A stretch of DNA of 64,000 bases, from assembly GCF_000423505.1 (NCBI RefSeq), contig NZ_KE384027.1, forward strand, positions 373,140-437,139, given 5' to 3'. The translations under genes were made by a program, and so were the position numbers. Of the stretch, positions 49,774-56,848 are shown piece after piece. How positions within the stretch are numbered: position 1 is the first letter of the stretch; every line of letters begins with the position of its first letter. Under the pieces are notes generated by a model, which saw nothing but the letters and a program-made list of their open reading frames with translations, was not told the DNA's origin and did not search any database. The stretch is from Pseudoclavibacter soli DSM 23366 (lineage in GTDB: Bacteria; Actinomycetota; Actinomycetes; Actinomycetales; Microbacteriaceae).

Positions 49774-50211
49774 TCAGCGTGAGGAGCGCTGCCGGATCCA
49801 GTCTTCGACGACCTCGGCAGCCCGGGTCGGGTCCTCATGCTCCCAGAAGCGGAGAACCGTCCAACCGGCCTGCTCCAGCAGTGTCCGGTCCCTCAGGTCA
49901 CGTTCTCGGTTTCGAGCGAACTTGCGAGCCCAGAAATCGACATTCGACTTGGGCATCGTGGCGTGGATCGGGCAGGAGTGCCAGTAGCAGCCATCGACGA
50001 AGATGGCCAGCCGGCGATGAGTGAAGACGATGTCCGGACGAACGTGGGCGGTCGGATCGACAGTGATTCGATAGTCGACGCGAAATCGGAGGCCTCGGCG
50101 GAACAGCTCGCGCCTCAGAGCGATCTCGGGAGCGGTGTCTCTTCGTCGGTTGGCTCGCATCGTGGCCCTCGCGTTGGCCGATGAAGTGCCGGGCGTCTCC
50201 TCTGCAGTCAC
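49774..50211 (-). CDS. vsr: Very short patch repair endonuclease (Vsr)
   Basis: 145 residues with the Vsr hallmarks RRDTAPEIALRRELFRRGLR, RPDIVF (residues 58-63) and FVDGCYWHSCP (from 71), then FWARKFARNRERD and GWTVLRFWEHE. Vsr nicks T:G mismatches that arise by deamination of 5-methylcytosine at Dcm sites. It is divergent from the restriction gene and belongs to the same module as the Dcm-like enzyme. The GTG at 50211 has a TACCGT -10 box 6 bases upstream, so it may be leaderless; an internal ATG (MRANRRRD) is an alternative. Confidence 0.93.
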   Translation of the reverse strand: MTAEETPGTSSANARATMRANRRRDTAPEIALRRELFRRGLRFRVDYRITVDPTAHVRPDIVFTHRRLAIFVDGCYWHSCPIHATMPKSNVDFWARKFARNRERDLRDRTLLEQAGWTVLRFWEHEDPTRAAEVVEDWIRQRSSR

Positions 50212-50215
50212 CCTC

Positions 50216-50235
50216 CCACGGTACTGCTACCGTGG
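50216..50235. promoter_or_regulatory. Palindrome spanning divergent -10 boxes of vsr and the restriction gene
   Basis: CCACGGTA-ctgc-TACCGTGG is a perfect inverted repeat. Each arm contains a TACCGT -10 hexamer: one reads toward vsr (6 bases before its GTG), the other toward the restriction endonuclease gene. A single protein bound here could control both promoters. Confidence 0.65.
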
Positions 50236-50274
50236 ACGCATTCATGGCACGACCGTTCTCGAGGAGGAAACGAG

Positions 50275-51492
50275 ATGACGAATTCCGACGCGCGCGGATA
50301 CTCGATGGAGTCGACGGCACCATCACCGCTGGCGGAGCGCGCCCTCGCGGAGGTGGAGAAGTCGGAGCTCTCATTCGCGAAGACACTCGCGGCGAACGAC
50401 ACCGGGGCCACCGGTGGTCACCAATCAGGTGTCCTGATAAACAAGCGCGGCGGCCGAGTGCTCTTCCCCCAAGGGGAGCCCGAGACCTCTCCAGTCACGG
50501 AGGACATCGAGATCGCCTGGCAGCCGGCAGGCACGGTCACTCAGTCCAAGGCGAAGTGGTATTCCTCGAAAGGCGAGTATCGCGTCACCGGCGGTTTCGG
50601 CAAGGTGATCGGAGCGGAGAACGCGGGAGACCTCTTCATCCTGATCCGCGTGGACGAATCCGAGTACCTCGCATTCGTGCTCTCCACCGAGGCCGATATC
50701 GAGTTCTTCCGCTCCAGCACGGGCATCTCCCCGGCGGAGTCGAGCGCTCTACTTGAGGCCGGTGCAAGGAGCGATAATGGCGGGATCGGAGCCGAGATCG
50801 ACGAGGATACGCTGATCTCCCTCTTCGTCAGCGGTCTGGATGATGCGTTCCCCGCGGGTTCGCAGGTCGCGGCGGAGGCGCGGAGGATCTGCGAGCTGCT
50901 CGGCGGAGGCGTCGGGGACGCGATCGCGCGACCGGATCGGCGTCTTCTCGAATGGGTGGATCTCGAATACCGTCTCTTCCAGCGCATCGAGGAGCATAAC
51001 CTGCTGCCAGTCGTCAGGAGCGGGTTCCGCACGCTGCAGGAGTTCATCGATCTCGCGAACAGCGTCAAGAATCGGAGAGCTTCGAGGGCGGGGCATTCCC
51101 TCGAGTACCACGTCGAGGCCCTTCTGATCGCGAATCGGGTGGCCTATACCGCGCAGGGGAGGACGGAGCTGCACAAGCGACCGGACTTCCTCCTGCCGTC
51201 CGAGGACGCCTACCACGATCCGGCCTATCCATCGAAGGCTCTCTCGATGCTCGCGGTCAAGACCACGTGCAAGGACAGATGGAGGCAGGTGATCTCCGAG
51301 GCCGATCGCATCCAGGTGAAGCACCTGCTGACGCTGCAGCAGAGCATCAGCGCGCACCAGATCGAGGAGATGACCGACGCTGGCATTCAGCTGGTGGTGC
51401 CGCGGCGATTCCATCCGATGTACCCTGCGGAGTCTCGCAGTCGACTGATGTCGGTGGAGGCCTTTCTGCGCGACGCTCCGAAACTGAGCTGA
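50275..51492 (+). CDS. EcoRII-like type II restriction endonuclease
   Basis: 405 residues, the same length as EcoRII. The N-terminal half corresponds to the effector domain (WQPAGTVTQSKAKWYSSKGE). The C-terminal catalytic domain has HSLEYHVEALLIANRVAYTA, then KRPDFLLPSEDAYHDPAY and the PD-(D/E)xK strand MLAVKTTCKDRWRQV with the EcoRII-type active-site residues. The expected recognition sequence is CCWGG, known for this family; specificity here is inferred. GAGGAGG precedes the ATG. Its partner methyltransferase follows 47-110 bases downstream on the same strand. Confidence 0.9.
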   Translation: MTNSDARGYSMESTAPSPLAERALAEVEKSELSFAKTLAANDTGATGGHQSGVLINKRGGRVLFPQGEPETSPVTEDIEIAWQPAGTVTQSKAKWYSSKGEYRVTGGFGKVIGAENAGDLFILIRVDESEYLAFVLSTEADIEFFRSSTGISPAESSALLEAGARSDNGGIGAEIDEDTLISLFVSGLDDAFPAGSQVAAEARRICELLGGGVGDAIARPDRRLLEWVDLEYRLFQRIEEHNLLPVVRSGFRTLQEFIDLANSVKNRRASRAGHSLEYHVEALLIANRVAYTAQGRTELHKRPDFLLPSEDAYHDPAYPSKALSMLAVKTTCKDRWRQVISEADRIQVKHLLTLQQSISAHQIEEMTDAGIQLVVPRRFHPMYPAESRSRLMSVEAFLRDAPKLS

Positions 51493-51573
51493 CGCACTGA
51501 CCTTCAGCCGTGTCGGTGGTCTGTGCCACGATTCGGACATGACTCCTCGACACTCCGCAGCCCCTGCCCTCAT

Positions 51574-51612
51574 GGGGAAGATCATGGGACATAATGTCGG
51601 TATGATTTCCCC
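51574..51612. promoter_or_regulatory. Nested palindrome over the methyltransferase promoter and start
   Basis: GGGGAAGATCAT (51574-51585) mirrors ATGATTTCCCC (51602-51612) with one bulged base. At its centre GACATAATGTC (51588-51598) is a perfect palindrome that contains a CATAAT -10 box (51590-51595). The ATG at 51602 follows the -10 by 6 bases, which implies a leaderless mRNA and an operator that would shut it off. Confidence 0.72.
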
Positions 51613-52948
51613 AGATATGCTCCAGTCCGCGCCCTCCGCAGTGGAGATGCTCGCGGAGCTGAGAACCATCTACAGCGTCGAACAGATCGCCTCCAGACTC
51701 GGTGTCAGCCCGAAGACCGTGGAGCGATGGTCTCAGGGGACCTCCTCGTGCCGCAGCGGTTATCTGCCGGCGCTTCGAGAACTGCTCGACCCCCCCTTCG
51801 CACATGAACTCTCCACGGGGAGGTTCCGCACGATCGATCTGTTCGCGGGCATCGGCGGCATCCGCGCGGCATTCGCGCAGCACGGGGGCGAGTGCGTCTT
51901 CACCAGCGAGTGGAACACGTTCGCGCAGAAGACCTACCGTGCGAACTACGCCGATGGCGAGCCCCTGGTCGGTGACATCGTTCCGTATCCGGCGTCGCAG
52001 ATCCCGGATCACGACGTGCTTCTGGCGGGCTTCCCTTGCCAGCCGTTCTCTATCGCGGGCGTGAGCAAGAAGAACTCGCTCGGGCGCGCACACGGGTTCA
52101 AAGACAAGACGCAGGGCACGCTCTTCTTCGACGTCGCGAGAATCATCGACGAGAAGAGGCCGAAGGCCTTCCTGCTCGAGAACGTGAAGAACCTCCGCTC
52201 GCATGACAAAGGACGCACCTTTGAAGTGATCCGCTCGACGCTCGTCGAAGAGCTCGGCTACGATCTGCACGTTCAAGTGCTCGATGGACGTGACTTCGTG
52301 CCGCAGCATCGAGAGCGCATCATGATCGTGGGCTTCCGAGAGCCGCAGTCCGATTTCAGCTTCGATGACATCCGCCGACCGGAGCGTCGTCCGATCCTGG
52401 CCGACATCCTCCACCGCACTGATGGCACCGAACCGTACCTGCCATGGGACGGTGACCGATTCTTCGACCATGAACACGCGCGGGTGCTCGAGAAGTACAC
52501 GCTGACTCCTCGGCTGTGGGCCTATCTGCAGGGTTATGCTGCAAAGCACCGAGCAGCCGGAAACGGCTTCGGCTTCGGCCTCGTGGGGCCGCAGGACACG
52601 TCGCGGACGCTCAGCGCCCGCTACTACAAAGACGGCTCCGAGATCCTGATCTCACAGGGTGACGACCGTCGTCCTCGGCGCCTCACCCCACGAGAGTGCG
52701 CCCGTCTGATGGGGTATCCAGACACCTTCCAGATCCCGGTCTCCGATACGCAGGCCTACCGTCAATTCGGCAACTCGGTCGTGGTTCCCATGATCAGCGA
52801 GGTCGCCCGACTCATCGCGGAGCGAATCGCCCCCTCCAGCGCCGATGGCGCCCGTGGCGCGGGGCGTGATGTGGTGGCGCGCATGCGAGGCACAGCCGGG
52901 CCGGGTCCCTCGAGCGATGAGGTGCTCGAACTGCTGCGCGGGGAGTGA
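51602..52948 (+). CDS. Dcm-like DNA (cytosine-5) methyltransferase with N-terminal HTH
   Basis: 448 residues from ATG 51602 (upstream ATGs at 51539 and 51572 lie before the promoter). An HTH (EQIASRLGVSPKTVERWSQG, residues 28-47) precedes the methyltransferase: SAM motif DLFAGIGG (79-86), catalytic Cys146 in GFPCQPF, ENV (193-195), QHRERIMIVG and the GNSVVVP motif near residue 400. M.EcoRII/M.SsoII-type enzymes use such HTH domains to repress their own promoters. The last 35 residues after AERIAPSS exceed the usual end and resemble an antitoxin tail (see findings). It protects host DNA from the adjacent endonuclease. Confidence 0.92.
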   Translation: MISPDMLQSAPSAVEMLAELRTIYSVEQIASRLGVSPKTVERWSQGTSSCRSGYLPALRELLDPPFAHELSTGRFRTIDLFAGIGGIRAAFAQHGGECVFTSEWNTFAQKTYRANYADGEPLVGDIVPYPASQIPDHDVLLAGFPCQPFSIAGVSKKNSLGRAHGFKDKTQGTLFFDVARIIDEKRPKAFLLENVKNLRSHDKGRTFEVIRSTLVEELGYDLHVQVLDGRDFVPQHRERIMIVGFREPQSDFSFDDIRRPERRPILADILHRTDGTEPYLPWDGDRFFDHEHARVLEKYTLTPRLWAYLQGYAAKHRAAGNGFGFGLVGPQDTSRTLSARYYKDGSEILISQGDDRRPRRLTPRECARLMGYPDTFQIPVSDTQAYRQFGNSVVVPMISEVARLIAERIAPSSADGARGAGRDVVARMRGTAGPGPSSDEVLELLRGE

Positions 52949-52974: not shown

Positions 52975-52996
52975 GTTCACCCGGCGTTCACCCGGC
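52975..52996 (+). promoter_or_regulatory. Two perfect 11-base direct repeats resembling a PHO box
   Basis: GTTCACCCGGC occurs twice head to tail (52975-52985, 52986-52996). The PhoP boxes of Streptomyces and relatives are built of 11-base units of the same GTTCACC type. A TACGCT -10-like box lies at 53046-53051. The next gene starts at 53144. Confidence 0.65.
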
Positions 52997-53143
52997 CGGC
53001 GGCGCGGCGCCACCTGGTGCTCGCCTGCGTGCCACCGCCGGCTCCTACGCTGAGCGCGCGGTCGCCCGAGACCGCCGCGGTCGACTGAGGCCGCGCAGCC
53101 ACCCGCGCGCCGCCATCGGCCGCGCCATCGCCGGAGGTTCCGA

Positions 53144-54793
53144 GTGTTCCAGCGCCGCAGACCCACCACCATCGCCCATCGCGCCCTTGCCGCCGCGGCC
53201 ATCGCGCTGCTCACCGGCGGCGGAGCACTGCTCGGCCCCGTGGCGGCGCAGGCCGACGCGCTGGCCGAGACCGGCGCATCCACCGGGGAGGGCAGCGTGC
53301 AGTACCTGGCTGCGCAGGCCGATGACTTGGTCGATGTGCGCATCAGCGATGTGCATCCGACGCAGCCTTCGCTCGGCTATGACGAGGTCTATTACAAGCT
53401 GGGCCGCTACACGCTCGGCAAAGACGAAGACAGTGGGAAGTCCAACAAGAAGTTCGACGACTGGTGCGAGACCAACGGCCAAGGGGAGGCCGCCTCAGTG
53501 TCTGAGGGAGCAACTTTGGCAGACACCTCCTCGTTCAGCTGTGAGATCGCAATCGGGGAGGAGACCGAAGACAGTATCGCCGAGATGAAGACGGTCGTGA
53601 TCGGCCCCGGCGGCACGCTGTATCTCACCGATGGACACCACACGCTCACCTCCTTCGCAGAGCTGACTTCCGACGGCGGCGAAGACATCCACGTGCGCCT
53701 AAAGGTTCTCGCCAACCTCAGCGACCTCTCGTCACGCGAGTTCTGGCAGACGATGGTCGACAACAAGTGGACCTGGCTGAAAGACGCCAGTGGCAACACC
53801 ATCACGCCGGCACAGCTGCCGACCAGTGTCGGGCTGAGCAACTTCCAGAACGACGAGTACCGCAGCCTGCTCTACTTCGGCCGTGACATCGGCTATGAAG
53901 CCGGGTCGATTCCGTTCCAGGAGTTCTACTGGGGCGACTGGCTGGCCAACACTGCGCAAGTCGACATTGACGACTGGGACAGCGATGCCGAAACTGCGCT
54001 CGCGACGGTGGAATCGGTGACTGAAAAGCAGGTGGCCCTGGCTGGTGACGAGCCGGTCAGCGGCGGTTTCACGGCGTCAGCTCTTGGGGTATTGAGCAAA
54101 TGGAACAACGGCAAGAACGCCACCAAGGGTGAGTTCGGTGATCTCGCTGCGCCGTACAGCGAGTCGAAGCCGGGCAAGATCGCCTACATGTTGCAGTACC
54201 GAGCCGCACTGCAGGCCAAGGGCATCAACCCGGACAGCGGGGCAGCACTCATCACCGTTGACGCCTCGCGCGGCACGCTCGTGGCTCCGGCGCAGAGCAG
54301 CCCGGGCGCGACAGTGACGGTCAGCGGCACGACCAACACACCTGAGGCTGTGGCCGACATCGAGCTGCACTCCGACCCGATTGTGCTTGCCACCGTCGTC
54401 ACTGACGATCACGGCGCGTTCAGCACTCAGATCACGTTGCCGAACACTGTGGCGCTCGGCACCCATGAGCTGGTCGCCACGGTTGCTGGTCAGGCGGTGA
54501 CTCAGACGGTGCGGGTTGCCCTGACCGACCCACCGACCAGCAGTGATGGCACGAGCAGTGACCAGGATTCGGCAGCGGTCGCGGCCGGTGATGAGACGAC
54601 CGCCGTGGCTGGTGCGGCTGCAGCCTCCGGCGAGCAGCGGTTGGCTGCTACAGGCACTGATGCCGACGCGATCTCGATCGTGCTGGCTCTAGGCATGCTC
54701 GTCGTGACCCTTGGCGTGGCGCTGGTGGTTGCCGCGCGCTGTGAGCAGACTGCTCAAGAGAGCCACGACGTTGCCCCAGTCAGTGGGGCGTGA
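53144..54793 (+). CDS. Secreted, LAxTG-anchored ParB-like nuclease-family protein
   Basis: 549 residues. A signal peptide (ALAAAAIALLTGGGALLGPV, cleavage near AQADA) precedes a domain with the ParBc_2 pattern: ISDVHPTQPSLGYDEVYYKL (residues 67-86), KTVVIGPGGTLYLTDGHHTL (149-168) and a long helical part. From about residue 365 an Ig-like beta domain follows (GATVTVSGTTNTPEAVADIE). The C-terminus has LAATG (500-504), a membrane helix and a polar tail, the same sorting class as the giant protein. Two cysteines at 108 and 133 could pair. GGAGG lies before the GTG start. Enzymatic activity is not proven. Confidence 0.8.
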   Translation: MFQRRRPTTIAHRALAAAAIALLTGGGALLGPVAAQADALAETGASTGEGSVQYLAAQADDLVDVRISDVHPTQPSLGYDEVYYKLGRYTLGKDEDSGKSNKKFDDWCETNGQGEAASVSEGATLADTSSFSCEIAIGEETEDSIAEMKTVVIGPGGTLYLTDGHHTLTSFAELTSDGGEDIHVRLKVLANLSDLSSREFWQTMVDNKWTWLKDASGNTITPAQLPTSVGLSNFQNDEYRSLLYFGRDIGYEAGSIPFQEFYWGDWLANTAQVDIDDWDSDAETALATVESVTEKQVALAGDEPVSGGFTASALGVLSKWNNGKNATKGEFGDLAAPYSESKPGKIAYMLQYRAALQAKGINPDSGAALITVDASRGTLVAPAQSSPGATVTVSGTTNTPEAVADIELHSDPIVLATVVTDDHGAFSTQITLPNTVALGTHELVATVAGQAVTQTVRVALTDPPTSSDGTSSDQDSAAVAAGDETTAVAGAAAASGEQRLAATGTDADAISIVLALGMLVVTLGVALVVAARCEQTAQESHDVAPVSGA

Positions 54794-55284: not shown

Positions 55285-56514
55285 TCACCTGTCTCTGAGC
55301 GCTCCCGGGTTGAGGAACTGGCGGCCCCACAGGGAGCTCCGCTGGGTGTCGGTGAGGTGCGCGAAGTCTGCAGCCTCACTCCAGTTGTCTCGAATGGTGC
55401 CCACAATATAGTCGATTTCATCGTGAGCTTCGGCGCGAGTGACGCTCATATCGGCAGCATGTTTGGCGAGCAGGTTGAGGTTGCTTTCCCTCTCTCCGTT
55501 GCGCCCATAGGCGATCGCCTGTGATGCGGTCTCCCCTGAGCGTGACGTGGGGCTCAAGTCATATGCTGGCGTGAGGGTGAGTGCTGCCCCGTTCCAGAAT
55601 GCAGAATGGTTGCGGACATGATCGTCCGTGTTGCCAATCGCGATGTTGAATGCCACACGACGAAACAGTTCACGCGCGGGATCATTATCCGAGTGGGTGC
55701 GAAGCGCTTCCAAGATGTCCGGATACGTTCCGTATCGCGCTGATACTTCATCCAGCCCCAGAAAAGTCAACGCGGTGACCACATGCTTTCGAGTGCCATC
55801 TGGCGGGCGGTCAAAACGGCGCATGAGGATCACCTCTTTTCCGAGCGATCGAACCACGGTTGTGTCTACCGTCTCGATTCCCACCTTCTTGGCAAGGAAC
55901 ATGCTTGCCGCTTCGGCACCAACCACTGGGTAGTGATCACTGCTTGAAGAGAACTTTGCCATCCACGGCTGACCGTCTACGGTGATAGTCGCTTTCGGGC
56001 GTGCGCCACCAACGCTTGTCCCATGCACAAGCGCGCGGTCAAGCTCCGCGGGAAGGGGCACACCCTCTTCTATGAGTTCAGCGGCTCGTTGAAGCTGCTC
56101 CAAGGTTGCAGGGTCTGGCGAGCGCGGCACATACTCAGCCGAAGATCGCTGCACATCGAGTGCGCCAATTCGGTCAGAGCCGGACCGCAGCAGATAATCG
56201 AGTTCACGGAGACCGGCGCTGTTGTCGGGAACTGCGCCGTGTTGCCCGGTCGTTTCGAGAATCACTCTGCGCCCCCACCCGTCAGGCGCTGCGTCTTGTA
56301 CTTCGCCGGGAATCAGTGCATACCCCGATGACAGATACCGTGTCGGCGCAAGTGGCAGGCCAAATAGCGCCATTGCGTCGCCCCGCTCAAGGTAATGCCT
56401 CCCGTACTGGAATGCGAGACTCCCGTTGCTTTGTTCTGTGAGCATGCCGCATGGCACGGGAGACGTCTCCCCGGGTAACCAAGTCCAGACGAATCCGGTT
56501 CGTTCAGAAGTCAA
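55285..56514 (-). CDS. hipA: HipA-family serine/threonine kinase toxin
   Basis: 409 residues. The HipA fold is visible in VHGTSVGGARPKATITVDGQ near residue 170, AKFSSSSDHYPVVGAEAASM, ILMRRFDRP, the catalytic loop IGNTDDHVRNHSAFW and PAYDLSPT. Related HipA kinases phosphorylate glutamyl-tRNA synthetase or other targets and arrest growth. I prefer the TTG at 56514, since AAGGAG stands 7 bases upstream; a GTG at 56532 is also open. It overlaps the antitoxin gene's end, the standard hipBA arrangement. Codon use is less GC-rich than in neighbours, which suggests acquisition. Confidence 0.9.
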   Translation of the reverse strand: MTSERTGFVWTWLPGETSPVPCGMLTEQSNGSLAFQYGRHYLERGDAMALFGLPLAPTRYLSSGYALIPGEVQDAAPDGWGRRVILETTGQHGAVPDNSAGLRELDYLLRSGSDRIGALDVQRSSAEYVPRSPDPATLEQLQRAAELIEEGVPLPAELDRALVHGTSVGGARPKATITVDGQPWMAKFSSSSDHYPVVGAEAASMFLAKKVGIETVDTTVVRSLGKEVILMRRFDRPPDGTRKHVVTALTFLGLDEVSARYGTYPDILEALRTHSDNDPARELFRRVAFNIAIGNTDDHVRNHSAFWNGAALTLTPAYDLSPTSRSGETASQAIAYGRNGERESNLNLLAKHAADMSVTRAEAHDEIDYIVGTIRDNWSEAADFAHLTDTQRSSLWGRQFLNPGALRDR

Positions 56515-56848
56515 GGTCGGACTCCTTGACACGTGTCGTTGGTGGGCGAACTCTGCTGGGCATCAGGGCGACAGTCTTGCGCAGCTGGTCAACAAACCGG
56601 CCGACTTCCTGCGGGCCAGACGATGAGAACAGGGGGTACCCAGCGGCCTCGGCGACAGCGAACGCGCTGCCCATAGTGATGTTCGGGCTCCCCTGCTCCA
56701 CCTGAGCGACCGTATACCGGGAGACTCCAGCACGCACACCCACCTGAGCCTGCGTGAGATGGCGCTCGATGCGGTGGAATTTCACCTGCGCGCCGAACAC
56801 CCCGAGCGCATCACGCACATAGGGGGAGGGGGAGAGTTTCTTCTGCAT
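56504..56848 (-). CDS. hipB: HipB-like antitoxin (XRE-type HTH)
   Basis: 114 residues. The Cro/C1-type HTH is at residues 31-53 (LTQAQVGVRAGVSRYTVAQV). The C-terminal part contains a helix and a flexible end (RPPTTRVKESDLDF), which in HipB-like proteins contacts HipA. GGAGGTG precedes the ATG. It neutralises the toxin and represses the operon through the palindrome at 56878-56898. Confidence 0.88.
   Translation of the reverse strand: MQKKLSPSPYVRDALGVFGAQVKFHRIERHLTQAQVGVRAGVSRYTVAQVEQGSPNITMGSAFAVAEAAGYPLFSSSGPQEVGRFVDQLRKTVALMPSRVRPPTTRVKESDLDF

Follow-up and report, generated by a model that had tools for sequence, protein, structure and literature searches.

What controls the ParBc_2 gene of this Pseudoclavibacter genome, and what does its product do at the cell surface? 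The window, by which we mean the whole 64-kb stretch of DNA that was analysed, carries two tandem 11-bp units before a gene for a protein that appears to be exported, and the original prediction took the two together for a surface enzyme made under phosphate limitation. The observation itself was confirmed and its interpretation was partly supported. PF08857 genes are named 'putative ParB-like nuclease' without a known function. A PHO-type promoter would tie the exported actinobacterial branch of this family to phosphate acquisition; it makes the function of ParBc_2 testable and cautions against the nuclease name.

The repeat and promoter before the ParBc_2 gene

The gene and its upstream region contain the following features:

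52975..52996, + strand: two perfect tandem 11-bp PHO-type units GTTCACCCGGC (exact matches at 52975-52985 and 52986-52996)
53008..53040, + strand: three weaker in-phase 11-bp units (CGCCACCTGGT, GCTCGCCTGCG and TGCCACCGCCG), assigned by hand
53046..53051, + strand: predicted -10 hexamer TACGCT, 5 nt past the last in-phase unit (offset 82, which is 5 modulo 11)
53133..53138, + strand: ribosome-binding site GGAGGT, read from the sequence
53144..54793, + strand: gene for a ParBc_2 protein of 549 aa, predicted to be exported and probably wall-anchored, with a GTG start (ORF and Pfam)

The two perfect PhoP-type repeats were located as claimed, and they are the only exact copies of GTTCACCCGGC in the window, adjacent to each other. 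With up to two mismatches allowed, the window contained 40 matches against 32.9 expected, and 40 was reached in 11 of 100 shuffles. Since such imperfect copies are not enriched in the window, it is the perfect tandem alone that is notable. The pattern GTTCACC-N4-GTTCACC has a single perfect match in the 2.22-Mb genome, at 52975-52996, and the next best match has two mismatches. Read by hand, the three weaker units retain 4, 5 and 4 of the 7 core letters, respectively. The distance from the box to the start codon is 147 bp, and the in-phase -10 and GGAGGT lie within that gap.

Two or more head-to-tail 11-nt direct repeats with a GTTCACC-like core, the arrangement that defines a PHO operator, are present at the locus and conserved in relatives. 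Core, unit length and head-to-tail order are the same as in the PHO boxes of Streptomyces, as these are described in excerpts of PMC4415409. Unlike there, the PhoP site is a predicted one, and the 5-nt step to the -10 is a prediction derived here from sequence.

Relatives were collected with a profile, made from an alignment of four relatives, that was run against genome contigs; it gave 84 encoding loci, and the best 80 were retained. One of these (L065) has no upstream sequence, leaving 79 for the upstream analysis. On the coding strand, 19 of the 79 loci had a two-core score of at least 12 out of 14 when the spacing was 11, compared with 0-3 loci for each of 13 other combinations of spacing (8-14) and strand. 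The loci were then thinned to 48 according to the 8-mers that they share. Scored over three units on the coding strand, these 48 averaged 11.3 at spacing 11; controls drawn from spacings 8-15 on both strands had averages of 4.0-6.5. In 46 of the 48 loci the spacing-11 score was higher than the mean of its 14 controls. Upstream regions of other ORFs at the same loci (n=293, rough gene calls) had a mean of 4.4; the P value for this difference is about 2e-21, and P values serve as guides here, as thinning lowers relatedness without removing it. Because 27 of 48 ParBc_2 upstream regions scored at least 10, against 14 of 293 control regions, we conclude that about half of the relatives have a clear array and that the others have a weak one or none.

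The predicted -10 keeps step with the repeats. In two Pseudoclavibacter relatives a -10-like hexamer (TATGCT, TATTCT) lies 5 nt past an in-phase unit, the same phase as TACGCT in the window. Of the 48 loci, 39 scored at least 8 (the window is not among them), and 21 of these have the relaxed motif (C/T)AnnnT at phase 5; the ten other phases had 0-5 loci each. This number includes the two relatives from which the rule was taken; leaving them out gives 19 of 37. The runner-up, with 5 loci, is the phase at which CACC is read from the unit core itself. Few loci have the strict form TAnnnT: three at phase 5 and two elsewhere, out of 40 including the window. A step of this phase puts the unit core 9 nt upstream of the -10, which is near the layout of E. 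coli pho promoters. Because the 11-bp phasing, the orientation and the coupling to the -10 recur across actinobacterial relatives, the repeat before the ParBc_2 gene looks like a PHO operator. The phosphate-starvation signal claimed for this site thus gains support from the phased arrays and the -10 coupling in relatives, as well as from the phoU arrays described below. Together they make a strong computational case, and we regard phosphate control of the ParBc_2 gene as very likely.

PhoB-type boxes (CTGTCAT, 11-bp) were not prominent before the genes of 12 proteobacterial relatives (12 of 26 plasmid records), with scores of 7-11 out of 14 against 7-11 for other spacings. The highest score, 11, was on the reverse strand of L125, whose own controls reached 10. 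Seven of these 12 records (L126-L132) encode short proteins of the Atu1540 type.

The same element at pho genes and across the genome

If the repeat is a PHO operator, similar arrays would be expected at the pho genes of this genome, and their absence had been named as a finding that would speak against the prediction. The region between phoU and a divergent two-component system contains three units oriented to phoU. Upstream of phoU the score at spacing 11 was 12 out of 14, while other spacings gave up to 10 on the same strand and up to 11 on the other. In four relatives the scores were 11-13 out of 14, and no control spacing on the same strand came up to them. At pstS the array of the window's genome scored 10 out of 14 and one control spacing reached 11. 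Among relatives, G001 and G003 scored 11 at pstS, with one control of 11 and 12, respectively, and G002 and G029 scored 13, with controls up to 11 and 10. A PHO-like array is therefore clear at phoU (five of five genomes) and mixed at pstS (clear in two of five); at phoU, then, the prediction survives the check on pho genes.

Similar direct repeats are read by other OmpR-family regulators, and none of the 25 NCBIfam models listed is matched above its cut-off by the OmpR-type regulator adjoining phoU, the YycF and MtrA models outscoring PhoB. The repeats could accordingly belong to an MtrA- or AfsR-like protein, for instance, that has nothing to do with phosphate. Such a regulator would have to be reconciled with arrays of the same kind before phoU in all five genomes and with a PF08857 protein that is Pi-responsive in Pseudomonas according to excerpts of PMC5082522, and we consider it very unlikely. 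PhoP remains the regulator that we propose.

Across the whole genome, the two-unit pattern with up to three mismatches had 302 matches versus 117 for a reversed control, and 25 of 30 listed loci fell within a predicted ORF (rough gene call). As a regulon predictor the two-unit pattern was rejected on account of these intragenic loci. Combined with a -10 it had 30 matches versus 14 in the control, 19 of the 30 within ORFs. Two candidate PHO sites are given as leads only. One precedes ppk, the polyphosphate kinase gene, on contig 4 of the window's genome (L037:8987-9019), with three mismatches to the pattern with -10 and 6 bp before the likely ATG. The other lies upstream of an ugpC-type gene on contig 1 (L150:1501-1533), also with three mismatches; the product, an ABC transporter ATPase, passes the cut-off set for the UgpC subfamily.

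The ParBc_2 protein and its fold

The product has these features:

53144..53260, + strand: predicted signal peptide, about residues 1-39, assigned by eye
53333..53947, + strand: PF08857 ParBc_2 domain, residues 64-268 (Pfam); the conserved block extends to about residue 360
53630..53641, + strand: DGHH motif, residues 163-166; D, H and H are invariant in a wider family sample
54641..54655, + strand: putative LAATG sorting motif, residues 500-504 (sequence, with sortase-family matches in the genome)
54668..54736, + strand: hydrophobic stretch past the sorting motif, assigned by eye

The ParB-like nuclease-family domain with TDGHH that had been recognized by eye is PF08857, matched at E 1.1e-41 with 143 bits against a cut-off of 23.6. 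The protein contains LYLTDGHHTLTSF. For attachment to the wall, another part of the prediction, most of the expected sequence elements were seen: an export signal, LAATG and a hydrophobic stretch, besides five matches to the sortase family in the window's genome. The basic tail of a sortase substrate is reduced to one Arg, and the C-terminus past the hydrophobic stretch is otherwise not basic. A loose composition test placed a hydrophobic stretch close to where the domain begins in 76 of the 80 homologue ORFs, and 15 of the 80 have an LAxTG anchor at the C-terminus.

All four residues of DGHH, together with Cys108 and Cys133 (window numbering), were invariant in an alignment of the window with 37 of the 80 loci. 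This was also the case in a larger alignment of 76 of the 80 loci, which omits L053, L065, L087 and L116 as their frames are broken or cut. Across 16 long and short relatives the residues T, Q, G, P, D, H, H, F, G and W were invariant. The cysteine pair would fit an extracellular disulphide. No second enzyme domain was detected at E 0.001 in the 76 aligned members, which carry only fn3, PKD and similar modules. In L053, L087 and L116 the ParBc_2 frame is broken inside the domain, by a frameshift, a stop or a sequencing error.

An AlphaFold2 model of the domain, based on the alignment of the window and 37 loci, had a pLDDT of 96.1, and Foldseek gave 2hwj as the sole confident match. This is Atu1540 of Agrobacterium, a PF08857 protein that has the same fold and is related by sequence at E 1e-9. 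A second structural aligner gave Z 18.7 for 2hwj (over 188 residues), followed by sulfiredoxin (5.3), Noc (5.2), ParB (5.0), SerK (4.2) and SbnI (3.3); values near 5 are weak singly, and the tool warns that Z below 8 may reflect a mere common arrangement. The 26 rows listed under 2hwj all appear, judging by their titles, to be of one superfamily, and no nuclease was among the listed matches of this aligner. Atu1540 has 205 aa, lacks the insertion of the window protein and has no known function. Seven short relatives (L126-L132) differ from the window protein in that no export signal was seen by eye.

By sequence the protein stands apart from ParB. At E 0.01 Pfam matched PF08857 only, and up to E 10 nothing credible besides; ParB_N (PF02195) and HTH domains were not matched in the window protein. 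A profile comparison of ParBc_2 with ParB_N (hhalign, 16 versus 7 sequences) showed no similarity (probability 0.1). ParB proper, the DNA-segregation CTPase, was therefore rejected as the identity of the protein. Since the listed weak matches share one superfamily while a profile link to ParB_N is missing, the model suggests, at weak Z, a domain that is ParB/sulfiredoxin-like in fold but not ParB. The core fold resembles that of the ParB/Srx nucleotide-binding superfamily (ParB CTPase, sulfiredoxin, SerK, SbnI; Z about 3-5), from which the window protein differs by its exported appearance, its conserved insertion and its Cys pair.

Possible function and spread of exported ParBc_2 proteins

A hint to the function comes from Pseudomonas fluorescens SBW25, where a Pfam08857 lipoprotein was found in the exoproteome of Pi-starved cells and a UshA-like role was suggested by the authors (excerpts of PMC5082522). 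Like the protein proposed here it is exported and phosphate-responsive; it is a Gram-negative lipoprotein and ours is putatively wall-anchored, and the two are likened by family and description. In the literature searched, Pfam08857 was mentioned in PMC5082522 only, the name PF08857 had no matches, and no catalytic activity was found for a PF08857 member. Other 'ParB-like nuclease' mentions among the papers listed concerned Pyrococcus PF0380, E. coli YbdM and Staphylococcus antitoxin predictions, none of them called PF08857 in the excerpts of PMC3824201, PMC12147183 and PMC11609420. We think that the product is probably an exported phosphate-acquisition protein.

The DNase of the original prediction, a domain that would cut extracellular DNA to harvest phosphate, did not find support. 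PHO control would suit a nuclease, and according to reports cited in excerpts of PMC5120207, RK2 ParB and the SerK relative PF0380 of Pyrococcus have nuclease activity. However, 'nuclease' is here a family name; no known nuclease domain accompanies PF08857, and the listed fold matches are of the ParB/sulfiredoxin type. According to the same excerpts, TK0378, a protein annotated as ParB and close to PF0380, turned out to be an ADP-dependent serine kinase. A DNase thus seems improbable.

We give no better chance to a non-enzymatic surface protein that binds phosphate or nucleotide and concentrates it for uptake. Such a binder would be well served by a wall anchor and a conserved pocket, and ParB/Srx folds bind CTP, ATP or GTP, depending on the member (excerpts of PMC12704722), with the caution that the fold match here is weak; 'secreted', 'extracellular', 'signal peptide' and 'ParBc_2' are absent from the main text of that paper. 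The invariant D-x-H-H, Q and W, and the pyrophosphatase fusion described next, look more enzyme-like.

A plasmid of Vibrio pelagius (L122:2917-4461) encodes a single protein, annotated only as ParB-like, in which ParBc_2 is preceded by a signal-like N-terminus and fused to an inorganic pyrophosphatase (PF00719, E 2e-34). The latter contains DGDPLDV, which we take to be the inorganic pyrophosphatase signature. The fusion was found in a single species: among 40 plasmid records with a match, the two that cover at least 80% of it are both from V. pelagius. It hints that the ParBc_2 step may yield pyrophosphate. When inorganic pyrophosphatase was added to the literature search, 'ParB-like' was absent among the matches listed, and 'ParB' was absent from PMC7244524. 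An extracellular phosphotransferase resembling the free serine kinases SerK and SbnI, whose structures gave the fold matches 5x0b (Z 4.2), 5ujd (Z 3.3) and 6nr6 (Z 3.2), is hardly plausible, as these Z values are weak and a phosphate-starved cell would be expected to find scant phosphate donor outside.

Since a ParB-annotated serine kinase, a nucleotide-binding fold, the SBW25 lipoprotein and the pyrophosphatase fusion point together in one direction, we favour over a DNase an exoenzyme that releases phosphate or cleaves nucleotides. On balance we lean towards a PhoP-controlled, wall-anchored phosphate-acquisition exoenzyme for nucleotides or similar compounds; that its activity is nucleotide or phosphoester cleavage has about an even chance.

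From the computed operator, promoter phase, fold model and conserved residues we infer the following course of events. At low phosphate, phosphorylated PhoP, presumably the OmpR-type regulator encoded beside phoU, would bind the 11-bp direct repeats and aid RNA polymerase at the -10 at 53046, so that the gene is induced. The product would be exported, which would place the ParBc_2 domain with its probable disulphide outside the membrane, and a sortase would link it to the wall at LAATG. The DGHH loop would most likely bind a nucleotide or a similar phosphorylated compound and cleave it, and the phosphate or pyrophosphate released could then lead to uptake by Pst. A bolder proposal sees in the exported ParBc_2 proteins a class of phosphate-starvation exoenzymes that has gone unrecognised, in which a ParB/sulfiredoxin fold cuts extracellular nucleotides to pyrophosphate and a fused or separate pyrophosphatase produces phosphate; the gene would move singly among actinobacteria and bring a PHO promoter of its own. 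We consider this rather unlikely as a whole; if pyrophosphate is indeed released, it would be a new fold among bacterial phosphate-scavenging exoenzymes.

Short ParBc_2 genes on Ensifer and Sphingomonas plasmids lie directly 3' of, and slightly overlap, a gene for a SulP-family anion transporter (L129:1274-3468, L130:1209-3465), hinting at an anion-linked role of the short proteins.

The PF08857 gene is sporadic: it was found in 4 of 149 relatives and, across the phylum, in 2 of 396 genomes (the window's own genome is counted in both). ORF clustering gave no neighbour family that is widespread across lineages, the largest covering 9 loci, and no phosphate theme appeared among 25 listed of 140 Pfam families in 95 adjacent proteins of the 48 thinned loci. 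It seems that the gene is passed on or maintained by itself, while many relatives keep a PHO-type promoter before it. Directly 5' of the gene in the window is a restriction-modification cluster of the EcoRII type, a place that a DUF4190 gene takes in the two nearest relatives. The cluster (49774-52948) consists of an EcoRII-like endonuclease (50275-51492, + strand), a Dcm-type methyltransferase (51539-52948, + strand) and Vsr (49774-50211, - strand), and ends 26 bp upstream of the PHO-type box. On the other side, the minus strand of 55285-56848 encodes a HipA-family protein (HipA_C, Couple_hipA) and, upstream of it, an HTH_3 protein, which are likely a toxin-antitoxin pair.
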